A stretch of 64,000 bases of DNA from a virus: the IMG/VR virus record IMGVR_UViG_3300050343_000190, positions 22,212 through 86,211 of that record, one strand, 5' to 3'. Position 1 is the first letter of the stretch; each line of letters opens with the position of its first letter. Below are positions 32,657 to 50,403 of the stretch, piece by piece. The position numbers and the translations under genes were made by a program. The notes beneath the pieces are model-generated. The model made no database searches, was not told the DNA's origin, and saw only the letters and a list, made by a program, of their open reading frames with translations.

Positions 32657-32928
32657 ATGTATATCTTAACAATCTACGGAAAAGAAACTGAAGGTGCATA
32701 TTCTGTACTTGATGATGAGGAGAACAGATACTTTATATTGTTTGAAGAAGAAGATGATGCTATGAGATATGCTATGATGTTAGAAGATGATGGAAGTCCA
32801 AAATGCATGTCATAGAAGTTGAAGATGATATAATGATAAAAACTTGTGAACTTCATGATTATAGTTACACTATAATTACTAAAAATGACATTGTAATTCC
32901 ACCTAGAACAAATCATGATTTTATTTGA
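32657..32928 (+). CDS. DUF3110-like protein between gp47 and gp46, frameshifted
   Basis: Starts M-Y-I-L-T-I-Y-G-K-E-T-E-G-A-Y-S right after the gp47 stop. The pattern (hydrophobic strand, EGAYSVLDDE, ILFEEEDDAMRYAMMLEDD, then a short V-x-E-V strand) fits DUF3110, a family known mainly from cyanobacteria and their phages. One frame change near 32803. The stop lies 14 bp inside gp46. About 90 aa. The family's function is unknown; its presence is a sign of a cyanobacterial host. Confidence 0.7.
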
Positions 32929-34578
32929 AAAATTCGTTGGAAAAATTTTCTTTCTACTGGAAATCAATTTACTGAAGTAGATTTACTAAAACACCTACCA
33001 ATTTATTATTGGTACAAATGGTGCTGGTAAATCTACTATTCTTGATGCTCTTACTTTTCTCTTGTTTGGAAAACCTTTTCGTAAAATTAATAAACCTCAA
33101 CTTATCAATTCTGTAAATGAAAAGGACTGTGTAGTTGAAGTTGAATTTTCTATTGGTAATGTGAACTGGAAAGTTTTCGTGGAATCAAACCAAATATATT
33201 TGAGATTTGGAGAGATGATAACTTTTAGATCAAGTGCAGCTGCTGCAGATCAGCAAAAATGGTTTGAGCAGAATGTATTAAAGATGAACTATAAGTCTTT
33301 TACTCAGATTGTAATTTTGGGTAGTAGCACTTTGTTCCTTTCATGCAATTGACTTCTACTAATCGTAGAGAAGTTATTGAAGATCTTCTTGATATTCGTA
33401 TCTTTTCTTCTATGAATAGTGTGATTAAAGATAAGATTCGAGGCCAAAGAAGATATTAAAGTTTTAGAACTTAAGAAAGAATCTCTTACTGATAAAGTTA
33501 AAATGCAAGAAAACTTTATTGAAGAACTTGAGAGTCGTGGAAAAGAAAATATTAAAGATAAAGAAATCGTATAGGTAATCTTCTTAATGAAGAGAATAAT
33601 TGGATGGGATCTAATGAAGAGTTAGAAAGAATCTCTTATAGATGTCAATGGTAAACTTGAAAATTTTCTGGTGCAACAGCAAACTTCGTAAACTTGGTAA
33701 TCTAAAAGGTAAGATTTCTAACAAAGTATCAACTATTACTAAGGAACATAAATTTTTCACAGAGAATACGGTTTGCCCTACATGCACACAATCTATTGAA
33801 GAGACCTTCAGAATAAATAAAATTGACGACGCTCAAATAAAGCAAAAGAGTTGCAATCTGGTTATAAAGAACTAGAGAGGCAATTAAAGAAGAAGAAAAG
33901 CGAGAGCGTCAATTTCACAGTTCTATCTAAGGAGATTACTTCACTCACACATGGCATTTCTCAAAACAATACTAAGATCGCTGGATGTCAAAGACAAATC
34001 AGAGATCTGGAATCGGAAATTCAAAGAGTTACCGACAACCTTGCAAACAGAAATACTGAGAATGAAAAGTTAGCAACCTTCAAGGATAATCTAAAAACTA
34101 CATACGACGAACTAGCAACAACGAAAGAAACAATTAACTATTACGATTTTCGTATAGTTTACTTAAAGACGGTGGAGTCAAATCTAAAATCATTAAGAAG
34201 TATCTACCGCTGATAAATCAGCAAGTAATAAGTATCTACAACTGATGGACTTCTATATTAACTTCTACACTTGATGAAGAATTTAACGAAACCGTCCAGT
34301 CTCCAATTCATGAAGACTTTTCTTATGCTTCTTTCAGCGAGGGAGAGAAGATGAGAATTGACTTAGCACTCTTGTTTACTTGGAGAGAAGTAGCAAGAAT
34401 GAAGAACTCTGTCAATACTAATCTATTGATTATGGATGAAGTATTTGATAGTTCTCTTAGATGGATTTGGTACAGAAGAATTTCTAAAGATTATTAGATT
34501 TGTATTAAAGATGCAAATATTTTTGTTATCTCTCATAAAGAATCTTTGCATGATAAGTTTAAAAGAAAACGCCTCTGA
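32915..34578 (+). CDS. gp46: Recombination nuclease ATPase gp46 (SbcC/Rad50 type), frameshifted
   Basis: SMC-like ATPase partner of gp47. Landmarks: RWKNFLSTGN, Walker A IGTNGAGKST, LDALTFLLFGKPFRKI, a Q-loop segment SFTQIVILGSSTF, a long coiled coil, the zinc hook VCPTCTQSI near 33780, and the C-terminal SEGEKMRIDLAL signature with Walker B LLIMDEVFD and the D-loop. The tail VISHKES gives the switch His. More than ten frame changes. Corrected length is about 560 aa. The very C-terminus is uncertain because the sequence turns into an unrelated fragment at about 34580. Confidence 0.92.
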
Positions 34579-38129: not shown

Positions 38130-38410
38130 ATGGATGATAAAATTGATTTAAATCTTGATCGTACTTATCTCAAACCTATAACGCACATTACACATCTCCT
38201 GATTCCAAGACTCAAACTCTTGATCTGATTGAAAGTATTGGAGATGCAGAACCATTCTGTCGTTCTAATGCTATCAAATATCTTTCACGTTTTGGTAAGA
38301 AGGGTGGTAAGTCTAAACAAGACATTTTAAAAGCAATTCACTATTGCGTCCTCCTCTATCACTTCTCTGGAATCCACGATCAACCTAAAGGTAATTATGA
38401 AACTTTCTGA
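38130..38410 (+). CDS. DUF3310-like protein, frameshifted
   Basis: ATG at 38130 gives M-D-D-K-I-D-L-N-L-D; after a frame change near 38175 it reads TLDLIESIGDAEPFC, NAIKYLSRFGKKGGK, KQDILKAIHYCVLLYHFSG. The I-K-Y-x-x-R-x-G-x-K-G-G segment followed by D-I-x-K-A-x-x-Y is the core of DUF3310, a small phage family sometimes labelled nucleotide kinase without proof. The stop overlaps the gp45 start by 14 bp. About 93 aa. Confidence 0.7.
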
Positions 38411-38705
38411 AAAAACTCTTTCTCTCCTCAAGAACTTCGGTAGCATCAATCAATCTATTCTTTTCAAAGAAGGAAACAAACTTCGCACTATTAGCGTGAT
38501 GAAGAATATTCTTGCAGAGGCAGAGATTGCAGAAGACATCCCTCAGGATTTTGGTATCTATGACTTGAACCAATTCTTGAATGGACTTTCTCTTCACCAG
38601 AGTCCAGAACTAGATTTTGAAAACCACGGATACGTTGTTATCCGTGAGGGTAAGATGCGTTATAATGAAACATATTCTTTTTACTTTGAAAGGTTGTCCT
38701 TTTGA
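38397..38705 (+). pseudogene. gp45: Truncated sliding clamp gp45 (N-terminal third only)
   Basis: Starts MKLSEKTLSLLKNFGSINQS, which matches the T4 gp45 N-terminus, and continues through AEAEIAEDIPQDFGIYDLNQFLNGLSL. The homology stops after about 90 residues (near VIREGKMR); the remaining two thirds of the clamp, about 140 residues, are absent and the frame then runs into the speD gene in another phase. The clamp is needed for replication and late transcription in T4, so this is either an assembly deletion, or the phage has a second clamp gene outside the window. No single-base correction restores it. Confidence 0.8.
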
Positions 38706-39000
38706 TTTACTTGATGATAAAGAGTTCATACGAATGGTTTTGTTTAGAGCATCAAAAGAATGTAAGTCAACATTGCTTGATTTGACAGTACATAAGTTTG
38801 ATCCTCAAGGTGTGACTGGAATTGCTATGCTTGCTGAGAGTCATCTCAGTATCCATACTTGGCCAGAGAATGGTATGGCAGTTTGTGATGTCTTTACTTG
38901 TGGGGATACCGCTATGCCTGAAAATGGTGTAGAATATATGAAAGAACAATTGAAGGCAACTGATATTGTGTCAAATGAATTTGTTCGTCCTTTGGAATGA
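38665..39000 (+). CDS. speD: S-adenosylmethionine decarboxylase SpeD
   Basis: Makes decarboxylated SAM for spermidine synthesis. ATG at 38665 gives MKHILFTLKGCPFDLLDD. The pyruvoyl-forming Ser is in LAESHLSIHTWPENG (Ser about residue 59), where the chain would cut itself between Glu and Ser. CDVFTCGD with the catalytic Cys follows. 111 aa, close to bacterial class 1B SpeD. Intact. It lies inside the remnant of gp45 and directly before gp44. Phage SpeD is a known cyanophage auxiliary gene; polyamines help DNA condensation. Confidence 0.92.
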   Translation: MKHILFTLKGCPFDLLDDKEFIRMVLFRASKECKSTLLDLTVHKFDPQGVTGIAMLAESHLSIHTWPENGMAVCDVFTCGDTAMPENGVEYMKEQLKATDIVSNEFVRPLE

Positions 39001-39002
39001 CT

Positions 39003-39945
39003 ATGCGTTGATGAATTTCTCTGGGTTGAAAAATATCGACCCAAAACTATTGATGAATGTATTTTACCACCAATATTAAGAAGACTTTTCAAGACTTCCT
39101 AGATAAGGGTGAGATACCAAATATGCTCCTTGCAGGTCCTGCTGGGTGTGGAAAGACTACGGTAGCAAAAGCACTCTGCAATGAACTAGGAGTAGATTTT
39201 TATGTCATCAACGGATCCGATGAAGGACGATTCCTTGATACCGTCAGAAATACTGCGAAGAATTTCGCTTCGACCGTCTCGCTTTCTTCAACTGCAAAAC
39301 ACAAAGTCATCATCATTGATGAGGCAGATAACACAACCAATGATGTACAACTCCTCCTACGGGCGTTTATTGAGGAGTTTAGTGGCAACTGCAGATTCAT
39401 CTTTACCTGCAACTTCAAAAACAAAATTCTCGAACCACTTCATTCCCGCACAACGGTCGTTGAATTTTCCATTAAGGGAAAAGAACGACAGGGACTTGCA
39501 GCCTCATTCTTCAAACGTATCCAAGAAATCTTGGATACAGAAGGTGTTAAATATGATAACAAGGTCCTGGTAGAACTTATTAATAAGCACTTTCCAGATT
39601 GGAGACGTGTTCTTAATGAGTGTCAAAGATATTCTTAAGTGGTACTATTGACTCAGGTATTCTTGCAACTTTTAGTGATGTAAAAGTAAATGACTTGGTT
39701 AAAAACTTAAGGAAAAAGATTTTCCCGAAGTACGTAAATGGGTTGTCAATAACCTGGACAATGATACTTCTGTCCTACTGCGTCGTATTTACGATGCTTG
39801 TTATGATTCCTTGGTTCCGAATAGTATTCCTGCTGCTGTGCTTACTCTTGCTAAGTATCAGTATCAAATGGCATTTGTTGCGGATCAGGAAATAAATATG
39901 CTTGCATGTTTGACTGAAATTATGGTGGAGTGTGAATTCAAATGA
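39003..39945 (+). CDS. gp44: Clamp loader ATPase gp44, frameshifted
   Basis: Large subunit of the clamp loader, AAA+ type. Start reads M-R-(V)-D-E-F-L-W-V-E-K-Y-R-P-K-T-I-D after a one-base correction near 39009. Walker A is AGPAGCGKTT, Walker B VIIIDEADN, sensor 1 FIFTCNFKNK, and LHSRTTVVEF carries the arginine finger. Frame changes near 39070, 39635 and 39715. Corrected length is about 315 aa (T4 319). The stop overlaps the next start (ATGA). Confidence 0.93.
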
Positions 39946-40332: not shown

Positions 40333-40550
40333 TGAGTTTATTCTCTAAACCTACCGAAGAAAATTTAACTAATCCTGTAGTAAAAACTACTTCCGAAAAC
40401 GTAAAGGAATCGCATGAAGCATTGTTTTATGCTACAATGAATTTACCAGAAGCGGCTGCTCACTGTGGTATGACTCAGAAGGAAATGAAAATGACTTTCT
40501 GGGAGTACTTAAAATATAATGAACCAAACTATGAATGTGACGAACGATGA
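40332..40550 (+). CDS. Small protein with helical HTH-like segment (72 aa)
   Basis: MSLFSKPTEENLTNP start, then a helical part FYATMNLPEAAAHCGMTQKEMKMTFWEYL that could be a helix-turn-helix (AAAHCGMTQKEM as the turn region). It overlaps the downstream DUF4338 gene by up to 32 bp. DNA binding is a guess from the pattern; no family is recognised. Confidence 0.55.
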   Translation: MSLFSKPTEENLTNPVVKTTSENVKESHEALFYATMNLPEAAAHCGMTQKEMKMTFWEYLKYNEPNYECDER

Positions 40551-41301
40551 TGCTGTATGGGCAGCAAATGAGTTTATAAACTACTTCTCCAATATGGGGA
40601 ATATTGAAGATTATCTCAGGTTCGTAAAGAAAGAAGTAATCAATTCATCAAGTTCTATTTTTTCATTACATGATGACTTCTTCAATGAAGACATTCATCC
40701 TGAAGAGATGGAATTTGATATCAAATTTGTGGGGGAAAGATTTCAACAATCTATTCCTCAAGATCATTATGGAAATTTGCTGAGAGCAGTTTCTTCTCAT
40801 AACAATGAAAGTAATATACCTGGAAGAGAACTACGTTGGGTAGTTTTTGAAAAGAGGACACAAACTGTTCTTGGATTTATTAGGTTTGGTTCTCCTACTA
40901 TTAATTCTAGACCAAGAAATATATGGTTGGGAAAGGCACCTGATCTGAGGATCTTTAATCGTCATGCTGCGATGGGATTTGTGATCGTTCCTTCTCAACC
41001 ATTTGGATATAACTACCTTGGAGGGAAACTCCTTGCGCTCTTGTGCTGCTCTCACTTCGCCCGTGAGACGCTTAATGAGGTCTTTGAGAAGGACATTGCT
41101 CTCTTTGAAACAACGTCTCTCTACGGGTCTACTACAGATGCCTCACAGTACGATGGACTCAAACCGTTCATGCGATTCAGGGGTTTGACTGAAAGTAAGT
41201 TCTTACCTCTTCTTCATGATGAGGTATTTCATCGTCTTCACGATCGTTTTACTATCCTCAATAATAATACTCCCTTGACTGATAGTAAGGGCTTCTTCTA
41301 A
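40519..41301 (+). CDS. DUF4338-like protein (DruA-related)
   Basis: 260 aa, intact. The middle has RHAAMGFVIVPSQPFGYN, then YLGGKLLALLCCS, FEKDIALFETTSLYGST and SQYDGLKPFMRFRGL. A hydrophobic N-R-x-x-x-G-F-V-I/P-S-x-x-x-x-N-x-L-(G/A) block followed by an E-T-T/F-V-like strand is the layout of DUF4338, the family of Druantia protein DruA and of proteins near transposases. Membership is inferred from this layout. Start ATG at 40519 overlaps the upstream gene by 32 bp; ATG at 40531 is possible. It sits inside the clamp loader/RegA replication operon, where cyanophages often carry this gene, as I recall. Confidence 0.6.
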   Translation: MNQTMNVTNDDAVWAANEFINYFSNMGNIEDYLRFVKKEVINSSSSIFSLHDDFFNEDIHPEEMEFDIKFVGERFQQSIPQDHYGNLLRAVSSHNNESNIPGRELRWVVFEKRTQTVLGFIRFGSPTINSRPRNIWLGKAPDLRIFNRHAAMGFVIVPSQPFGYNYLGGKLLALLCCSHFARETLNEVFEKDIALFETTSLYGSTTDASQYDGLKPFMRFRGLTESKFLPLLHDEVFHRLHDRFTILNNNTPLTDSKGFF

Positions 41302-41323
41302 GAAACTAAAACGTCAGACGAAG

Positions 41324-41647
41324 ATGATTTCTATTATTCGCAATTCACTTGAGGATACTGAAAAACTGAATGAGTTTAATTCTGTGATTAATATTGCTTT
41401 TAATCTAACTCAAAAGAAGAGATTTTATATTTCTAATTATGGATATGAAAATGTGCGTGAAGTTATTTGTGGTGAACAAGAAACTCTAGTTCGCGGTCCT
41501 AACTGGGAAAAGTTTCACCTTGAGAATATTATTTCTTGGTGGAAGAAGAAATCAACCAAGAGATATGAAAAACTAAAAAGGGAAGGAAGGTTCAGAACAA
41601 AAGTTGAACTATGGACAGATGATGACGACATTCAGATTATCCGATGA
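41324..41647 (+). CDS. Conserved phage protein (107 aa)
   Basis: Starts MISIIRNSLEDTEKLNEF. Helical and basic, with KRFYISNYGYENVREV, GPNWEKFHLENIISWWKKK and a C-terminal WTDDDDIQIIR. No catalytic motif. Its stop overlaps the next start (ATGA). Confidence 0.55.
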   Translation: MISIIRNSLEDTEKLNEFNSVINIAFNLTQKKRFYISNYGYENVREVICGEQETLVRGPNWEKFHLENIISWWKKKSTKRYEKLKREGRFRTKVELWTDDDDIQIIR

Positions 41648-41787
41648 CTTGTGAAGTAACTTTGTTCAAGGCTGGAAAAGTCTTTAAAGAAACTGTGATA
41701 GCACGGGACTATCAAGATGCTAAGGAAGTTGCCTTAGCAAGAAATCCTGGAGCAACAATTGTTAGTGTAACTGCTGTATTTAAATAA
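41644..41787 (+). CDS. Small protein (47 aa)
   Basis: ATG overlaps the upstream stop (CGATGA) and the stop overlaps the gp62 start (TAATGG), so it is a link in a translationally coupled chain. MTCEVTLFKAGKVFKETV, then ARDYQDAKEVALARNPGATIV: a beta-strand/helix pattern like small cyanophage proteins. Function unknown. Confidence 0.6.
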   Translation: MTCEVTLFKAGKVFKETVIARDYQDAKEVALARNPGATIVSVTAVFK

Positions 41788-42165
41788 TGGAACTCAAAGA
41801 CTCTCAACTCCATCAACTTCAATAAAAATGATCTGGTCAAAGAAGATCCAGAGAGTATCAAAAAGTATCCGCCGTTCATTGTAAATAAATGTCTTGCTGG
41901 ACACATTGATTGTATTATGTTTGCTAATGAGATGAACAAGAATCATCAGTTAGACAAGGATATGCAATATTCATTTTATCTAAATAGTTTGAGGAAAAAA
42001 AAGAGATTCTCTCCTTGGCTCCGTAAGGATAAAATAGATGATTTAGAATGTGTTAAAAAATACTATGGTTATAGTACTGAAAAAGCATTACAAGCATTAA
42101 AGATTTTATCTAGTGAACAAATTAAATTTATTAAACAACGACTTGAAACTGGCGGTAGAAAATGA
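41787..42165 (+). CDS. gp62: Clamp loader small subunit gp62, frameshifted
   Basis: Partner of gp44. ATG at 41787 reads M-E-L-K-D, a frame change near 41804 gives FLNSINFNKNDL, then KKYPPFIVNKCLAGHIDCI, FANEMNKNHQLDKDMQYSFYL and KKRFSPWLRKD, the conserved gp62 block. About 125 aa, the shorter form found in cyanophages (T4 187). It follows the usual order gp44 ... gp62, regA. Confidence 0.85.
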
Positions 42166-42593
42166 CTAATCAAACTGTTGAACCACAAGTAAATTGGTCT
42201 CCTGATATGATGGTTGAGGTAGTGCTCAATGAACCAGATGACTTTTTAAAGGTACGTGAAACACTAACTCGTATTGGAGTTGCATCTAGAAAGGAGAAAA
42301 AACTTTATCAAAGTTGCCATATTTTGCATAAGCAAGGTAAGTATTACATTACACACTTTAAGGAATTGTTTGCACTTGACGGAAAACATGCTAACCTTAC
42401 TGTAAATGATGTGCAGCGTAGGAATCGCATCGCAAGACTTCTTTCTGATTGGGGATTAGTATCCATCGTCTCTGAAGATGATGTTTCTGATATTGCACCT
42501 CTCAATCAAATTAAGGTTCTTTCATTCCGAGATAAGGGTGAATGGATTCTTGAAACTAAGTACAGCATCGGTAGTAAAAAGAAACCTAATTGA
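42162..42593 (+). CDS. regA: Translational repressor RegA
   Basis: RNA-binding protein that blocks translation of early phage messages. Sequence matches T4 RegA along its length: DDFLKVRETLTRIGVASRKEKKLYQSCHILHK (seen in parts), YYITHFKELFALDGK, RRNRIARLLSDWGLV and ETKYSIG. ATG at 42162 overlaps the gp62 stop (AATGA). 143 aa versus 122 in T4, owing to an N-terminal extension. Intact. Confidence 0.95.
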   Translation: MTNQTVEPQVNWSPDMMVEVVLNEPDDFLKVRETLTRIGVASRKEKKLYQSCHILHKQGKYYITHFKELFALDGKHANLTVNDVQRRNRIARLLSDWGLVSIVSEDDVSDIAPLNQIKVLSFRDKGEWILETKYSIGSKKKPN

Positions 42594-44106: not shown

Positions 44107-44562
44107 ATGGGAAACCTTGCACGGTATACTGCTGCAGATCTGCCTGCGTTGATGGAACGCATAAATAGGAATAGTATTGGAATGGATGAATATTTCGATA
44201 GGTTGTTCGACCTTCATGAAACAACAAAGAATTATCCACCATTTAATCTAGTAACGAGGTCAGTAACGTAGAATCGAAACTAGAACTTGCACTTAGCAGG
44301 ATTTAAAAAGAAAGAAGTAAATGTCTACACACAAGACGGAAAACTCTTTGTCGAAGGACAAAAAGAGGACACCGAGTCAGAAAAAGAGTATGTCCATAGA
44401 GGAATGGCTCAACGATCTTTCACCAGATCTTGGACACTGGCAGAGGATACGGAAGTTAGATCAGTTGAATTTGAGGATGGGTTACTAACTATTGTTCTTG
44501 GTAGGATTGTTCCAGATCATCATCAAAAAAAGTATGGTTTTGATACCCTAACTAATTTTTGA
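44107..44562 (+). CDS. hsp20: Hsp20 / small heat-shock chaperone, frameshifted
   Basis: Alpha-crystallin-type holdase. Starts MGNLARYTAADLPALMERI, a long phage-type N-arm with FDRLFDL and YPPFNLV. After a frame change near 44265, the alpha-crystallin core shows ELALAGFKKKEVNVYTQDG, LFVEGQKED, and RSFTRSWTLAEDTEV with GLLTIVLG. About 150 aa. Typical of T4-like cyanophages, with its own late promoter. Confidence 0.92.
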
Positions 44563-44780: not shown

Positions 44781-44821
44781 AGAGGACGACTGGTAAAATC
44801 CAGTAAGTCCTCTATTTTTTT
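44781..44821 (+). terminator. Hairpin upstream of glyA
   Basis: AGAGGAC (44781) pairs with GTCCTCT (44807) and the inner ACTGG (44789) with CCAGT (44800), then attttttt. It ends 10 bp before the glyA start. The inner core and the preceding TATCGTC are repeated in the hairpin after glyA. Confidence 0.75.
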
Positions 44822-44831
44822 GGAGATTATT

Positions 44832-46034
44832 ATGAGTTTAGAAGTCAACGATTCATTAGTTAACGGATTTATCCAAAAAGAACTAGAGAGACAACAGAAT
44901 CATCTAGAGATGATTGCTAGTGAGAACTTTACGTCTCCTGATGTGATGGAAGCTCAGGGTTCAATTCTTACTAATAAGTATGCAGAAGGATTGCCTGGTA
45001 AAAGATACTATGGTGGATGTGAATGGGTTGACCAGATTGAAGATCTAGCAAGAGAAAGAGTAAAAAAACTATTCAATGCAGAGTGGGCAAATGTCCAACC
45101 TCATAGTGGAGCACAAGCAAATGCTGCTGTATTCCTTGCTCTTCTGAAACCAGGAGACACTGTTCTATCTCTTGATCTATCTCATGGTGGTCATCTATCC
45201 CACGGATCAAAAGTTAATATGTCTGGTAAGTGGTTCAATGTTTGCCACTATGAAGTTGATGAGACTGGTAGACTGGACTACGATAGAATATTAGAACTTG
45301 CAAGGGAATGTAAACCACAACTTATCATCTGCGGGTTCTCTGCATACACTAGAACAATTGATTTTAGTAAGTTTAGAAATATTGCTGATGAAGTTGGATC
45401 ATATCTATTAGCAGACATTGCACACATTGCAGGATTGGTTGCATCAGGTGTTCATCCATCACCACTTCCATATGCAGATGTAGTTACCACAACAACTCAT
45501 AAGACTCTGAGAGGTCCGAGAGGTGGGTTGATTATGTCTAATGATGTGGAGATGGGTAAGAGGTTAGACAAGGCAGTATTTCCAGGAACTCAGGGTGGTC
45601 CATTGGAACATGTGATTGCTGCAAAAGCAGTTGCATTCGGTGAGGCACTTAAACCAGAATTCAGAGAATATTGTCTTCAAGTTGTTGCTAATGCAAAATC
45701 TCTTGGTCGTAGATTAATTGAAAATGGTATCAATATTGTGTCTGATGGAACAGATAATCATATTGTTCTACTTGATTTGAGAAGTCTAGGAATCACAGGT
45801 AAGTTTGCTGATCAACTTGTGAGTGAAATTAATATCACTGCAAATAAAAATACAGTTCCTTTTGATCCTGAGTCTCCCTTTGTTACCAGTGGATTACGTT
45901 TAGGTACTGCTGCTCTTACTACTAGAGGGTTTGATGAAAACGACTTTGTTGAAGTTGCTGATATTATTGCAAGTCGATTAAACAATTATGAGCAAGAAGG
46001 AAATAAAGAAGAGTGTTTAAGTAAGAGTATCTAA
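44832..46034 (+). CDS. glyA: Serine hydroxymethyltransferase GlyA
   Basis: PLP enzyme that converts serine to glycine and loads tetrahydrofolate with a one-carbon unit for dTMP and purine synthesis. Intact, 400 aa. The start ATG at 44832 has GGAG 8 bp upstream. The PLP lysine is in [15 protein letters not shown] (Lys about residue 224). Other landmarks are [52 protein letters not shown] and [13 protein letters not shown]. It is slightly shorter than bacterial GlyA (about 415-430). A metabolic gene, probably host- or phage-derived by transfer, set between two related hairpins. Confidence 0.96.
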
Positions 46035-47143: not shown

Positions 47144-47914
47144 GAATTCTAAGTATAGACTTGGACTATATTATGGGTCCAACTATTGGAGAATATGAAG
47201 CTGCTGATTTTTGGAATGATAATTCGGGTGTTAGGTGGGATAATTTCTTTAGATTTAAACCCGAAATAAAGGAGTCTGATCTTTATTTTGATAAGGGTCA
47301 TCTTTTTTATATTTTTAAGTTATTCAATAAATGTCTTCATAATGGAGTAGAAACTAGTTTTGCTTATGATCATGATAATATCTTATATCATATTGGAGAC
47401 AAAACTGACTTAGAAATAATTAATATAGATCATCATCATGACGTAATTTATCATGGAGATATGATTTGGAAAGAGATATCTCCAGATGGATCTCCTTCTA
47501 GTAAAGGAAACAAACATGAATATCGTCATGTTAAGATGAATAATGATATTGATGAAGGATGTTGGATTGCTTATCTTAGAGCTTCAAAATAGGATTAAAT
47601 CTTATACTTGGATAAGTAGTCAGCATTCTATTGATGGTGTTCCTGAAAAAGAAATGGAGTATTTTACAGGACTCATACCAAACATGCGTACCGCTACAAA
47701 GGAAGAGTATGATATACTAGACTATGACTTCGATCATATGCACTTGTGTCTTTCTCCCCAGTACATTCCCCCAGCACACTGGCATCTTTATACGTTGTTT
47801 TTAATTGCTTATGAGGTTTACACTGGTAAGAAAGTTAATCTCGGTGAGATCGGAAACAAAAAATTTGAAATGTCTATTCGTCATCTAAACGTAACTAATG
47901 AAATTCTACACTAA
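47140..47914 (+). CDS. UPF0489-like protein, arginase-fold pattern, frameshifted
   Basis: Starts MRILSIDLDYIMGP; contains FAYDHDNILYHI and IINIDHHHDVIYHG, an I-D-x-H-x-D-type metal site reminiscent of the UPF0489 and arginase/HDAC folds. A frame change near 47590 joins SQHSIDGVPEKEMEYFTG and ends RHLNVTNEILH. About 255 aa. Overlaps the DNA polymerase start by 17 bp. UPF0489 proteins have no proven function; D/H metal binding is inferred from the motif. Confidence 0.65.
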
Positions 47915-50403
47915 TGTCCAGATGATTGGGAACAAATTCCTAGTCAGAGGATATGAAAATGGTCAGAGGGTTATGTACAAGGATGATTTTTTTCCTACCT
48001 TGTATGTTCCTTCTAAAAAACAATCTTCTTACAAAACTCTTGAGGGTGAAAATGTAGAACCTATTAAACCTGGTACCGTCAGGGATTGTAGAGAATTCTA
48101 CAAAAAGTATGAGGATGTGGAAGGATTTAAGATCTATGGAAATGATCGTTATGTAAGTCAGTATATTTCCGAGAAGTACACTGAGAAAGAAATAAAGTTT
48201 GATATAACAAAACTAAAACTACTCACTATTGATATTGAGGTTTCTGCTGAATATGGGTTTCCAGATACGGAATCTGTAGCAGAAGAAATGCTCACTATTG
48301 CTATTCAAGATTACAATACAAAAAAGATTATTGTATGGGGTGTGAAACCTTTTAACAATACACAGGAGAATGTTAGTTATATCAATTGTGGTGATGAGTA
48401 TACTATGCTCATCAAGTTTTTGGATTGGTGGGAGAATAATTATCCAGACATTATCACTGGTTGGAATGTTCAACTATATGATATTCCATATATTTGTGGG
48501 AGAGTCAATCGTGTTCTTGGTGAGAAAGCCATGAAAAAGTTTTCTCCTTGGGGTCTTGTGAGTCAGAAAGAAGTTTACATCATGGGGAGAAAGAATATTG
48601 CATTTGAAGTGGGTGGTCTTTCTCAACTTAGACTACATGGATTTGTATAAGAAGTTTACTTATAAGGCACAAGAATCATATCGCCTAGACTCATATAGCT
48701 GAGGTTGAACTTGGTCAAAAGAAACTTGACCACTCTGAGTTTGATACGTTCAAAGATTTCTATACTGGTAACTGGCAGAAGTTATTGAATACAATATTGT
48801 TGACGTAGAACTTGTTGACCGACTGGAAGACAAGATGAAACTGATTGAACTTGCATTGACTATGGCATATGATGCAAAGTTAATTATGCATGATGTGTTC
48901 TATCAGGTTCGTATGTGGGATAATATAATCTACAATTATTTGAAAGAAGAGGGATATTGTTATTCCCTCCAAAAGATTCGTTCTGATAAAAACGAAAAGT
49001 ATGCAGGTGCATATGTTAAAGAACCGATTCCGGGAAAGTATGATTGGGTTGTGTAGTTTTGACCTTAACTAGTCTGTATCCTCATCTTATCATGCAATAC
49101 AACATCTCTCCAGAAACTTACTGGATGAGAAACATCCAACAGCAGCAGTTGATAAAATCCTTGAATGAAGAGATAAACTTTGAGTTGTATAAAGATAATG
49201 CGGTCTGTGCTAATGGTGCAATGTATCGTAAAGATGTTCGTGGGTTTCTACCAGAACTTGATGGAGAAGATGTATGGAGATCGTGTTATCTTTAAAAAGA
49301 GAATGCTTCAGGCAAAGCAAGCAATATGAAAAGACACCTACTAAGTTGCACTTGAGAAAGAGATTGCACGGTGCAACAACATTCAAATGGCGAAGAAGAT
49401 CTCTCTTAACTCTGCTTATGGTGCTATTGGTAATCAATACTTTAGGTATTACAAACTAGCAAATGCAGAAGCGATCACTTTGTCTGGTCAAGTATCAATC
49501 AGATGGATTGAAATGCGTATGAACGCATATCTAAATAAACTATTGCAAACGGAAGGTGTCGATTATGTTATTGCATCCGACACTGATTCAATTTATCTTA
49601 GTCTCGGACCTCTTGTTGATAAATTTTTTACTGATAAGTCTGGCGATAAAACAAAGATTGTTGGAATACTTGATAAGATCTGTGAAGATAAGTTGGAACC
49701 ATTCATCGAGTCCAGTTATAAGAAACTTGCGAATTACGTTTCGGCATATGAACAAAAAATGATCATGAAGCGTGAGAATATCGCTGAACGTGGTATCTGG
49801 ACTGCGAAGAAGCGATACATTCTTAACGTATGGGATAGTGAAGGTGTTAGATATGAAGAACCCAAACTAAAGATTATGGGATTGGAAGCTGTAAAATCTT
49901 CTACTCCTGCCCCCTGTCGTAAGATGATCAAGGATGCTTTAAAAATAATTCTCAATGGGACAGAAGATGAAGTTATCGAATTCATTGAAAACTGCAGAAA
50001 AGATTTTAGGTCTCTTCCCCCAGAAGAAATTGCATTTCCAAGAACTGCATCAGATGTTAAGAAGTATGCTTCATCTTCGCACATCTATTCAAAGGGAACT
50101 CCTATTCATGTTAGGGGTGCCCTGCTGTTTAACTATTATGTAAAAGAGAATAAATTAAATAATAAGTATTCTCTTATCAATAATGGTGAGAAGATTAAAT
50201 TTATATACATGAAGAAACCGAATCCGATTCATGAAAATGTTTTATCTTTCATACAAGAGTTTCCTCATGAGTTAAACTTGACTAAGTATATTGATTATGA
50301 ATTGCAGTTTGATAAGAGTTTTTTAGAACCTCTTAAGTCTATCCTTGATGCTATTGGATGGAGTGTTGAAAAGAAAATCAGTCTTGATTCTTTCTTTGAA
50401 TAG
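47898..50403 (+). CDS. gp43: DNA polymerase gp43 (family B), frameshifted
   Basis: Replicative polymerase with proofreading. Exonuclease motif I is LTIDIEVSAE, Exo II YDIPYICGRVNR with WNVQLYD; the polymerase motif A is FDLNSLYPHLIM, motif B KISLNSAYGAIGNQ, motif C IASDTDSIYLSL, and the KKRY-type motif is TAKKRYIL. Frame changes are near 48630, 48700, 48790, 48880, 48955-49050, 49265 and 49325-49385; from 49387 it is intact. About 830 aa, normal for cyanophage gp43. The C-terminal SLDSFFE resembles the sliding-clamp-binding tail of T4 gp43. Confidence 0.96.

Follow-up and report, generated by a model that had tools for sequence, protein, structure and literature searches.

Results

A DruA-like gene lies between the clamp-loader genes and is split in the window record

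The stretch of DNA analyzed here, hereafter the window, comprises 64,000 nucleotides of a virus record of 86,211 bases (IMGVR_UViG_3300050343_000190) from an ocean cyanophage. It carries the clamp loader/RegA operon, and an ORF of 260 amino acids on the plus strand is placed between gp44 and gp62-RegA, just where the original prediction had located a DruA-like protein (Table 1). The presence of this ORF was confirmed, but it does not represent a full gene. It matches positions 1-255 of PHROG 19197 (375 positions, annotated as unknown function; E = 1.8e-104), and positions 269-375 of the same profile are matched by the next ORF. When an intact 375-amino acid copy from another viral locus (L008) was aligned to the window, residues 1-258 fell on 40519-41292 in frame 1 and residues 257-375 on 41288-41644 in frame 2. 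The gene is uninterrupted at 375 amino acids both in L008 and in a further locus, L009, and in these copies residues 1-258 are 100% identical to the window ORF. The window ORF is the front part of a 375-amino acid gene whose frame is broken in its own record, the rest lying in the next frame.

Table 1. Features of the gp44 to RegA region, in window coordinates
Feature	Coordinates	Strand	Remarks
gp44, large subunit of the clamp loader; upstream border of the slot	39007..39942	+	in several frames in the record
DruA-family (PF14236) protein, N-terminal two thirds with predicted GNAT core	40519..41301	+	frame 1, broken near the 3´ end
Codons of the invariant residues of the predicted GNAT core (L008 numbering)	40822..41184	+	invariant in 45/45 proteins of the cellular and phage DruA-family alignment
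C-terminal part of the DruA-like gene (residues 257-375 of the intact copy)	41288..41647	+	frame 2; open as ORF 41324-41647
Small ORF of 47 amino acids between the DruA-like gene and gp62	41644..41787	+	overlaps the stop codon of the DruA-like gene; L008 has one too
gp62, small subunit of the clamp loader; downstream border of the slot	41803..42162	+	first few codons out of frame; intact in L008
RegA translational repressor	42162..42593	+	-

Because the gene is full-length in 233 of the 240 viral loci retrieved with three DruA-family members as queries, and the remaining seven copies reach a contig end, the break is specific to the window record. Other genes of the record are affected too, namely gp44, gp43, gp46 and the beginning of gp62, so that the break is most likely an error of the record that has no bearing on the family. 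A programmed frameshift was considered and dropped, because all 233 complete relatives do without one and further genes of the record are out of frame as well.

The window record has many small errors, as is evident from the spread over several frames of gp44, gp43 (47895-50397), gp46 (32915-34569) and the start of gp62 (41787-42165). Upstream of the operon's gp44 (38397-39000), the sliding clamp gene gp45 ends after ~87 residues and runs into an ORF for a likely S-adenosylmethionine decarboxylase. L009 has ~770 further bases between the pieces that match the window gp45 and the decarboxylase region, and the junction looks like a misjoin in the window record. Downstream of the operon lie an Hsp20 gene (44107-44532) and a 404-amino acid ORF (44820-46034), which we take, by eye, to resemble serine hydroxymethyltransferase.

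The phage protein belongs to the DruA family

The original prediction had assigned the protein, from sequence patterns, to DUF4338, the family of the Druantia protein DruA. Profile searches upheld this assignment. The window ORF matches Pfam PF14236 ("DruA", formerly DUF4338) with 38.2 bits (E = 1.2e-9) against a curated cut-off of 27, the intact copy matches it with 37.1 bits, and the PADLOC DruA profile matches the window ORF at 9.4e-5. Profile-profile comparison of the 375-amino acid phage type with cellular DruA was likewise significant (96.8%, E = 2.5e-10). The window protein covers only positions 42-181 of the 297 in the Pfam profile. A second phage type, of 432 amino acids, is found in the pelagiphages Mosig and HTVC008M, the latter of which has both types; it is the only type to cover most of the profile (positions 60-296, 1.8e-22), and it bridges the other two groups, with profile-profile probabilities of 99.8% to the 375-amino acid type and 99.1% to DruA. 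Two of the three motifs that had been named, PSQPFGYNYLGGKL and ETTSLYG, are present as described, but the first reads NRHAAMGFVI, in which NR and G are separated by four residues rather than three. Thus, Pfam, PADLOC and profile-profile comparison all support a family link between the phage protein and DruA.

In an alignment of 45 DruA-family proteins, cellular as well as phage, eleven residues are invariant, ten of them within the core region (G102, G119, R133, P161, G168-G169-K170, S200, Y211 and G222 in L008 numbering). A sequence search of solved structures returned no significant relative, and NCBIfam gave no match for four phage family members and none for the phage protein Mom, discussed below. 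By tblastn, relatives are present in 31 phage records, mainly of T4-like Synechococcus phages, plus two pelagiphages; cultured cyanophages that bear the gene include S-SM2, S-SSM7, Sf-CH8 and S-T4.

DruA of Druantia type I (PF14236; PADLOC PDLC00001/2) and the phage protein have in common a family match over the cut-off, the invariant residues and a predicted GNAT core, although the C-terminal part of the phage protein has diverged. The two differ in setting. Druantia type I has druB, druC, druD and druE beside druA, as illustrated by a bacterial locus (L300) that matches PADLOC DruA at 3e-209 and has druD and druE adjoining, whereas the phage gene is without these and neighbors gp44, gp62 and RegA. 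The part of the Druantia literature available to us gives no molecular function for DruA (PMC7251935). DUF4338 has already been named a GNAT domain in fusions to DndF, which have the Pfam family in common with the phage protein and are part of a restriction complex; GNAT is placed there among possibly protein-targeting domains, and the accessible portion of that paper mentions neither a link to Mom nor a phage slot (PMC10853773). By Pfam, one protein of a marine single-cell genome (L285:1154-2911) carries a ParB N-terminal domain followed by a fused DruA domain.

Sequence comparison among close relatives points to purifying selection: across 243 pairs, the median dN/dS is 0.046 and the median dS 1.0. 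A ratio near 0.05 argues that the DruA-like gene is a working gene, and, together with the full-length copies at 233 of the 240 loci, it contradicts the idea that the gene is a remnant of a mobile element. Another early suggestion was a counter-defence decoy; such a protein would imitate DruA without its catalysis and so poison the Druantia system of the host. Homology to DruA is what such a decoy would display, but the phage proteins keep, without exception, the residues that cellular DruA conserves. In addition, among 147 genomes from a single Pelagibacter family (cyanobacterial hosts lie outside this sample), PF14236 was found in just two, one of the two matches being a phage-type gene, and a decoy would leave the exchange with a methyltransferase gene described below unexplained. 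We consider a decoy very improbable.

The phage protein and bacterial DruA are predicted to have a GNAT fold

The intact L008 sequence, unchanged, was modelled with AlphaFold (64 sequences; pLDDT 83.2, pTM 0.81), as was bacterial DruA from L300 (45 sequences; pLDDT 85.0, pTM 0.82). The best match of the phage model among solved structures had a Z score of 10.3 (2.9 Å, 143 aligned), and 49 of the 50 matches listed are titled acetyl- or acyltransferases, the other being titled uncharacterized; Foldseek alone gave the phage model no match at E ≤ 0.001. For the DruA model, the top solved match was the S124A variant of Mom from phage Mu (8bv8_A; Z 9.2, 4.1 Å, 181 of 222 aligned), followed by SpeG and other GNATs at Z 8.5 and below, which, lying within 1 Z, are tied with Mom by the rule of the comparison tool. 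A predicted GNAT fold is well supported by these models for both the phage protein and bacterial DruA.

The models also provide a lead toward Mom, which is described in the accessible part of one paper as a DNA-modifying GNAT that acts on adenine (PMC7824862). The solved structure, 8bv8, was deposited as "Methylcarbamoylase mom" and is the sole match of the phage Mu Mom sequence among solved structures. Against viral predicted structures, the phage model retrieved a Salmonella phage Mom at rank 10 (probability 0.98, TMt 0.57), the top three being giant-virus proteins annotated as unknown function. Mom was absent from the 50 solved-structure matches listed for the phage model and from the 50 viral-library matches listed for the DruA model. 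By eye, Mom of phage Mu (PF25680) and the DruA-family models have the order of core elements in common, and the Ser124 segment of Mom (PRNSESRA) lies at the fold position matching the GGK of the DruA family; Mom has SES where the DruA family has GGK, the serine is not obviously kept, and DruA-family proteins are longer, with a C-terminal helical extension. Profiles made no connection between the two. Nine Mom proteins compared by hhalign with three DruA sub-families gave probabilities of 0.5, 0.13 and 0.32%, and PF25680 matched neither four phage members nor the window ORF, for which PF14236 plus one chance row were the only results, nor was there a match (0) in its own virus record. Because the hhalign probability is below 1%, we do not call the phage protein a Mom, and we treat the Mom-likeness as a lead from fold ranking rather than as membership. 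In databank entries, annotators named the DruA-family gene "methylcarbamoylase mom" in S-SCSM2R and "iron-binding protein" in S-CREM1, with no basis given in the records; Mom is iron-dependent. Our literature search, whose reach left out most subscription journals, found no paper that links DruA to Mom.

For the phage and DruA models alike, the nearest of the viral structures listed belong to unnamed giant-virus proteins, from Faunusvirus, Yasminevirus and Dasosvirus (BFVD A0A3G4ZXG3, A0A5K0UAJ3 and A0A3G4ZRA1). These predicted similarities suggest that DruA-like proteins occur in viruses of eukaryotes.

The DruA-like gene and a Dam methyltransferase gene occupy the same slot

In phages Bellamy and S-SKS1, a gene annotated as "DNA methyltransferase" is found directly before gp62, where the DruA-like gene resides in the window. 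Both are D12-class N6-adenine methyltransferases (PF02086; 8.1e-28 and 3.2e-28), referred to here as Dam, and relatives are present in 421 phage records; cultured phages with Dam include Bellamy, S-SSM4 and P-SSM2. In S-SKS1, genes annotated as purine-synthesis enzymes lie ahead of the methyltransferase within the gp44-gp62 gap (L334:5795-6815). The slot was surveyed in the best 80 of 599 viral loci seeded with RegA, a choice blind to slot content, and labels were assigned by tblastn. Forty-seven of these loci have both gp44 and gp62, and the gap between them contains Dam in 29, a DruA-like gene in 14, neither in 4 and both in none; the other 33 loci contain the methyltransferase (17), the DruA-like gene (6) or neither (10). 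Directly before gp62, the gene is the methyltransferase in 46 loci, the DruA-like gene in 20, gp44 in 4 and unrecognised in 10. None of the 70 loci with a recognised gene at this position has both Dam and the DruA-like gene, and no Dam gene was found in the 240 DruA-family loci. Under independence, the lack of co-occurrence would have a value of 6.6e-14, a figure that ignores relatedness and is not used here as a probability.

Across whole genomes the separation is not complete. One of 21 DruA-bearing records, that of S-SCSM2R, has a distant Dam-like gene elsewhere in the genome. Pfam Dam exceeds its cut-off in one of 19 DruA-bearing records (a second has a weak, interrupted match) versus 5/5 Dam-bearing records, and a DruA query found nothing in eight Dam-bearing or empty-slot records (0/8, in a search that included no positive control).

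The two genes have replaced each other repeatedly. A DNA tree of gp62-RegA (94 loci given, 93 used) requires at least 15 changes between Dam and DruA over its 93 rows, 79 of which are labelled Dam or DruA, and well-supported branches alone force 12 changes when the DruA label is set against all others; these counts come from a tree whose bootstrap had not fully settled and from a marker linked to the slot, so that recombination may blur them. In most of the related phages sampled, the D12-class methyltransferases of cyanophages occupy the slot that the DruA-like gene takes in the window, yet they belong to a different Pfam family, and the Dam fold is unrelated to that predicted for the DruA-like protein.

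Frequent exchange between conserved flanks is also what would be seen if the genes were alternative alleles of a recombination cassette, exchanged by homology through gp44 and gp62 and carrying cargo without a common function. The gap ranges from 3 to 3486 bases, with room for other small genes, and the slot of the more distant phage HTVC008M holds other cargo, a 2OG-Fe(II) oxygenase. Such a cassette explains replacement, but it does not explain why 66 of the 70 loci have either Dam, a modifier of DNA bases, or the DruA-like gene before gp62, and we regard cargo of unrelated function as very improbable.

Other phage copies of the gene sit in comparable surroundings. In the set retrieved with a pelagiphage query (80 loci), the nearest recognised upstream gene is gp44 in 48 and gp43 in 25, and the nearest recognised downstream gene is gp62 in 48 and uvsX in 21. 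The 432-amino acid type comes after gp46 at 74 of its 80 loci (L089-L168; also L005:4599-5897 and L333:8117-9259). All of these positions are in replication or recombination operons. In Mosig, three dioxygenase genes of the 2OG-Fe(II) or phytanoyl type lie upstream of the 432-amino acid DruA-family gene.

We also compared the 16 four-base palindromes between the 46 Dam and 20 DruA loci. Four differ, TGCA (p = 0.0005), AGCT (0.0035), ACGT (0.0045) and GGCC (0.008), by label shuffles uncorrected for relatedness or for 16 tests. GGCC is strongly depleted in Dam-slot loci (0.33 of expectation; L336-L413 set) but only slightly so in DruA-slot loci (0.75), and it occurs at 0.77 in the 80 loci retrieved with a DruA query (L008-L087), a set that overlaps with the 20 in two loci. 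GATC avoidance does not differ between Dam and DruA loci (p = 0.63) and is not stronger in the latter. The GGCC contrast could be a hint of a protected site or could reflect mere kinship, and motif avoidance was set aside as too weak to serve as evidence of protected sites.

Discussion

A replication operon in which a predicted GNAT alternates with an N6-adenine methyltransferase suggests that DNA is modified as it is made, probably at adenine. We propose that the DruA-like gene encodes a DNA-modifying GNAT that is interchangeable with Dam and protects phage DNA, a reading to which we assign a probability of roughly 0.6. In this model, the DruA-family enzyme would act on phage DNA during replication in a Mom-like manner, a GNAT fold with an acyl-CoA-type cofactor placing a small group on a DNA base, probably adenine. 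DNA bearing the group would no longer be recognised by host nucleases. The enzyme would thus do the job of the D12-class methyltransferase at the slot that both use, such that the genes can replace each other. The DruA family, the predicted Mom-type fold and the exchange with Dam together make it probable that the protein marks the phage's own DNA, in keeping with the established protection of phage DNA through modification by DNA methyltransferases and by Mom. A third early suggestion, that the protein is a DNA-binding helper, gained no support and is the less likely reading, since a predicted fold of enzymes, that of GNATs, and recurrent swaps with a DNA adenine methyltransferase at one slot point to an enzyme that modifies DNA.

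Many GNATs act on proteins or RNA. The DruA-like protein could be a protein acyltransferase that, early in infection, acylates a host or phage protein such as RNA polymerase or a replisome subunit, the gp44-gp62 gap being a mere hot spot for cassettes. The sections of two papers available to us offer precedent, since the phiKMV GNAT Rac acts on RNA polymerase and GNATs are considered possible protein-targeting co-effectors (PMC7824862, PMC10853773), and the gap houses other small genes as well. We think this unlikely, given that every recognised gene before gp62 (70 of 70) is Dam, DruA-like or gp44, with Dam and the DruA-like gene never together, that the tree calls for so many changes between these two, and that a DNA-modifying GNAT ranks first among the solved structures matched by the DruA model. 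It is quite unlikely that the target is instead RNA, tRNA or a nucleotide, modified so as to redirect host translation or metabolism. The toxins TacT, AtaT2 and GmvT, which acylate tRNA (as their entry titles in part state), are among the fold matches listed, but toxin GNATs are small, single-domain proteins, compared with 375 amino acids here, and the DruA-like gene lies in the operon of the clamp loader and RegA, where the gene that it trades places with encodes a DNA methyltransferase and does not concern RNA.

The proposal that the DruA-like protein is a DNA-modifying GNAT can be extended, much more tentatively, to the whole DruA family. It is possible, if doubtful at present, that all of its members, including DruA of Druantia type I, are DNA-base-modifying GNATs, with the cyanophage proteins substituting for Dam. 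In Druantia, the mark left by DruA, on self or on the invader, would then be read by the DruE helicase complex. Within the reach of our searches, two findings are new, the Mom-like ranking of DruA and the reciprocal exchange of the DruA-like gene with Dam.

The proposed tie to the Mom fold and the swap with Dam make the function of the DruA family testable in cultured cyanophages. If the DruA-like protein does modify DNA, abundant marine phages would join those with hypermodified DNA, and a first function would be at hand for DruA of Druantia type I. Should the reading hold for the family as a whole, a defence gene and a phage gene would represent one class of DNA writer.
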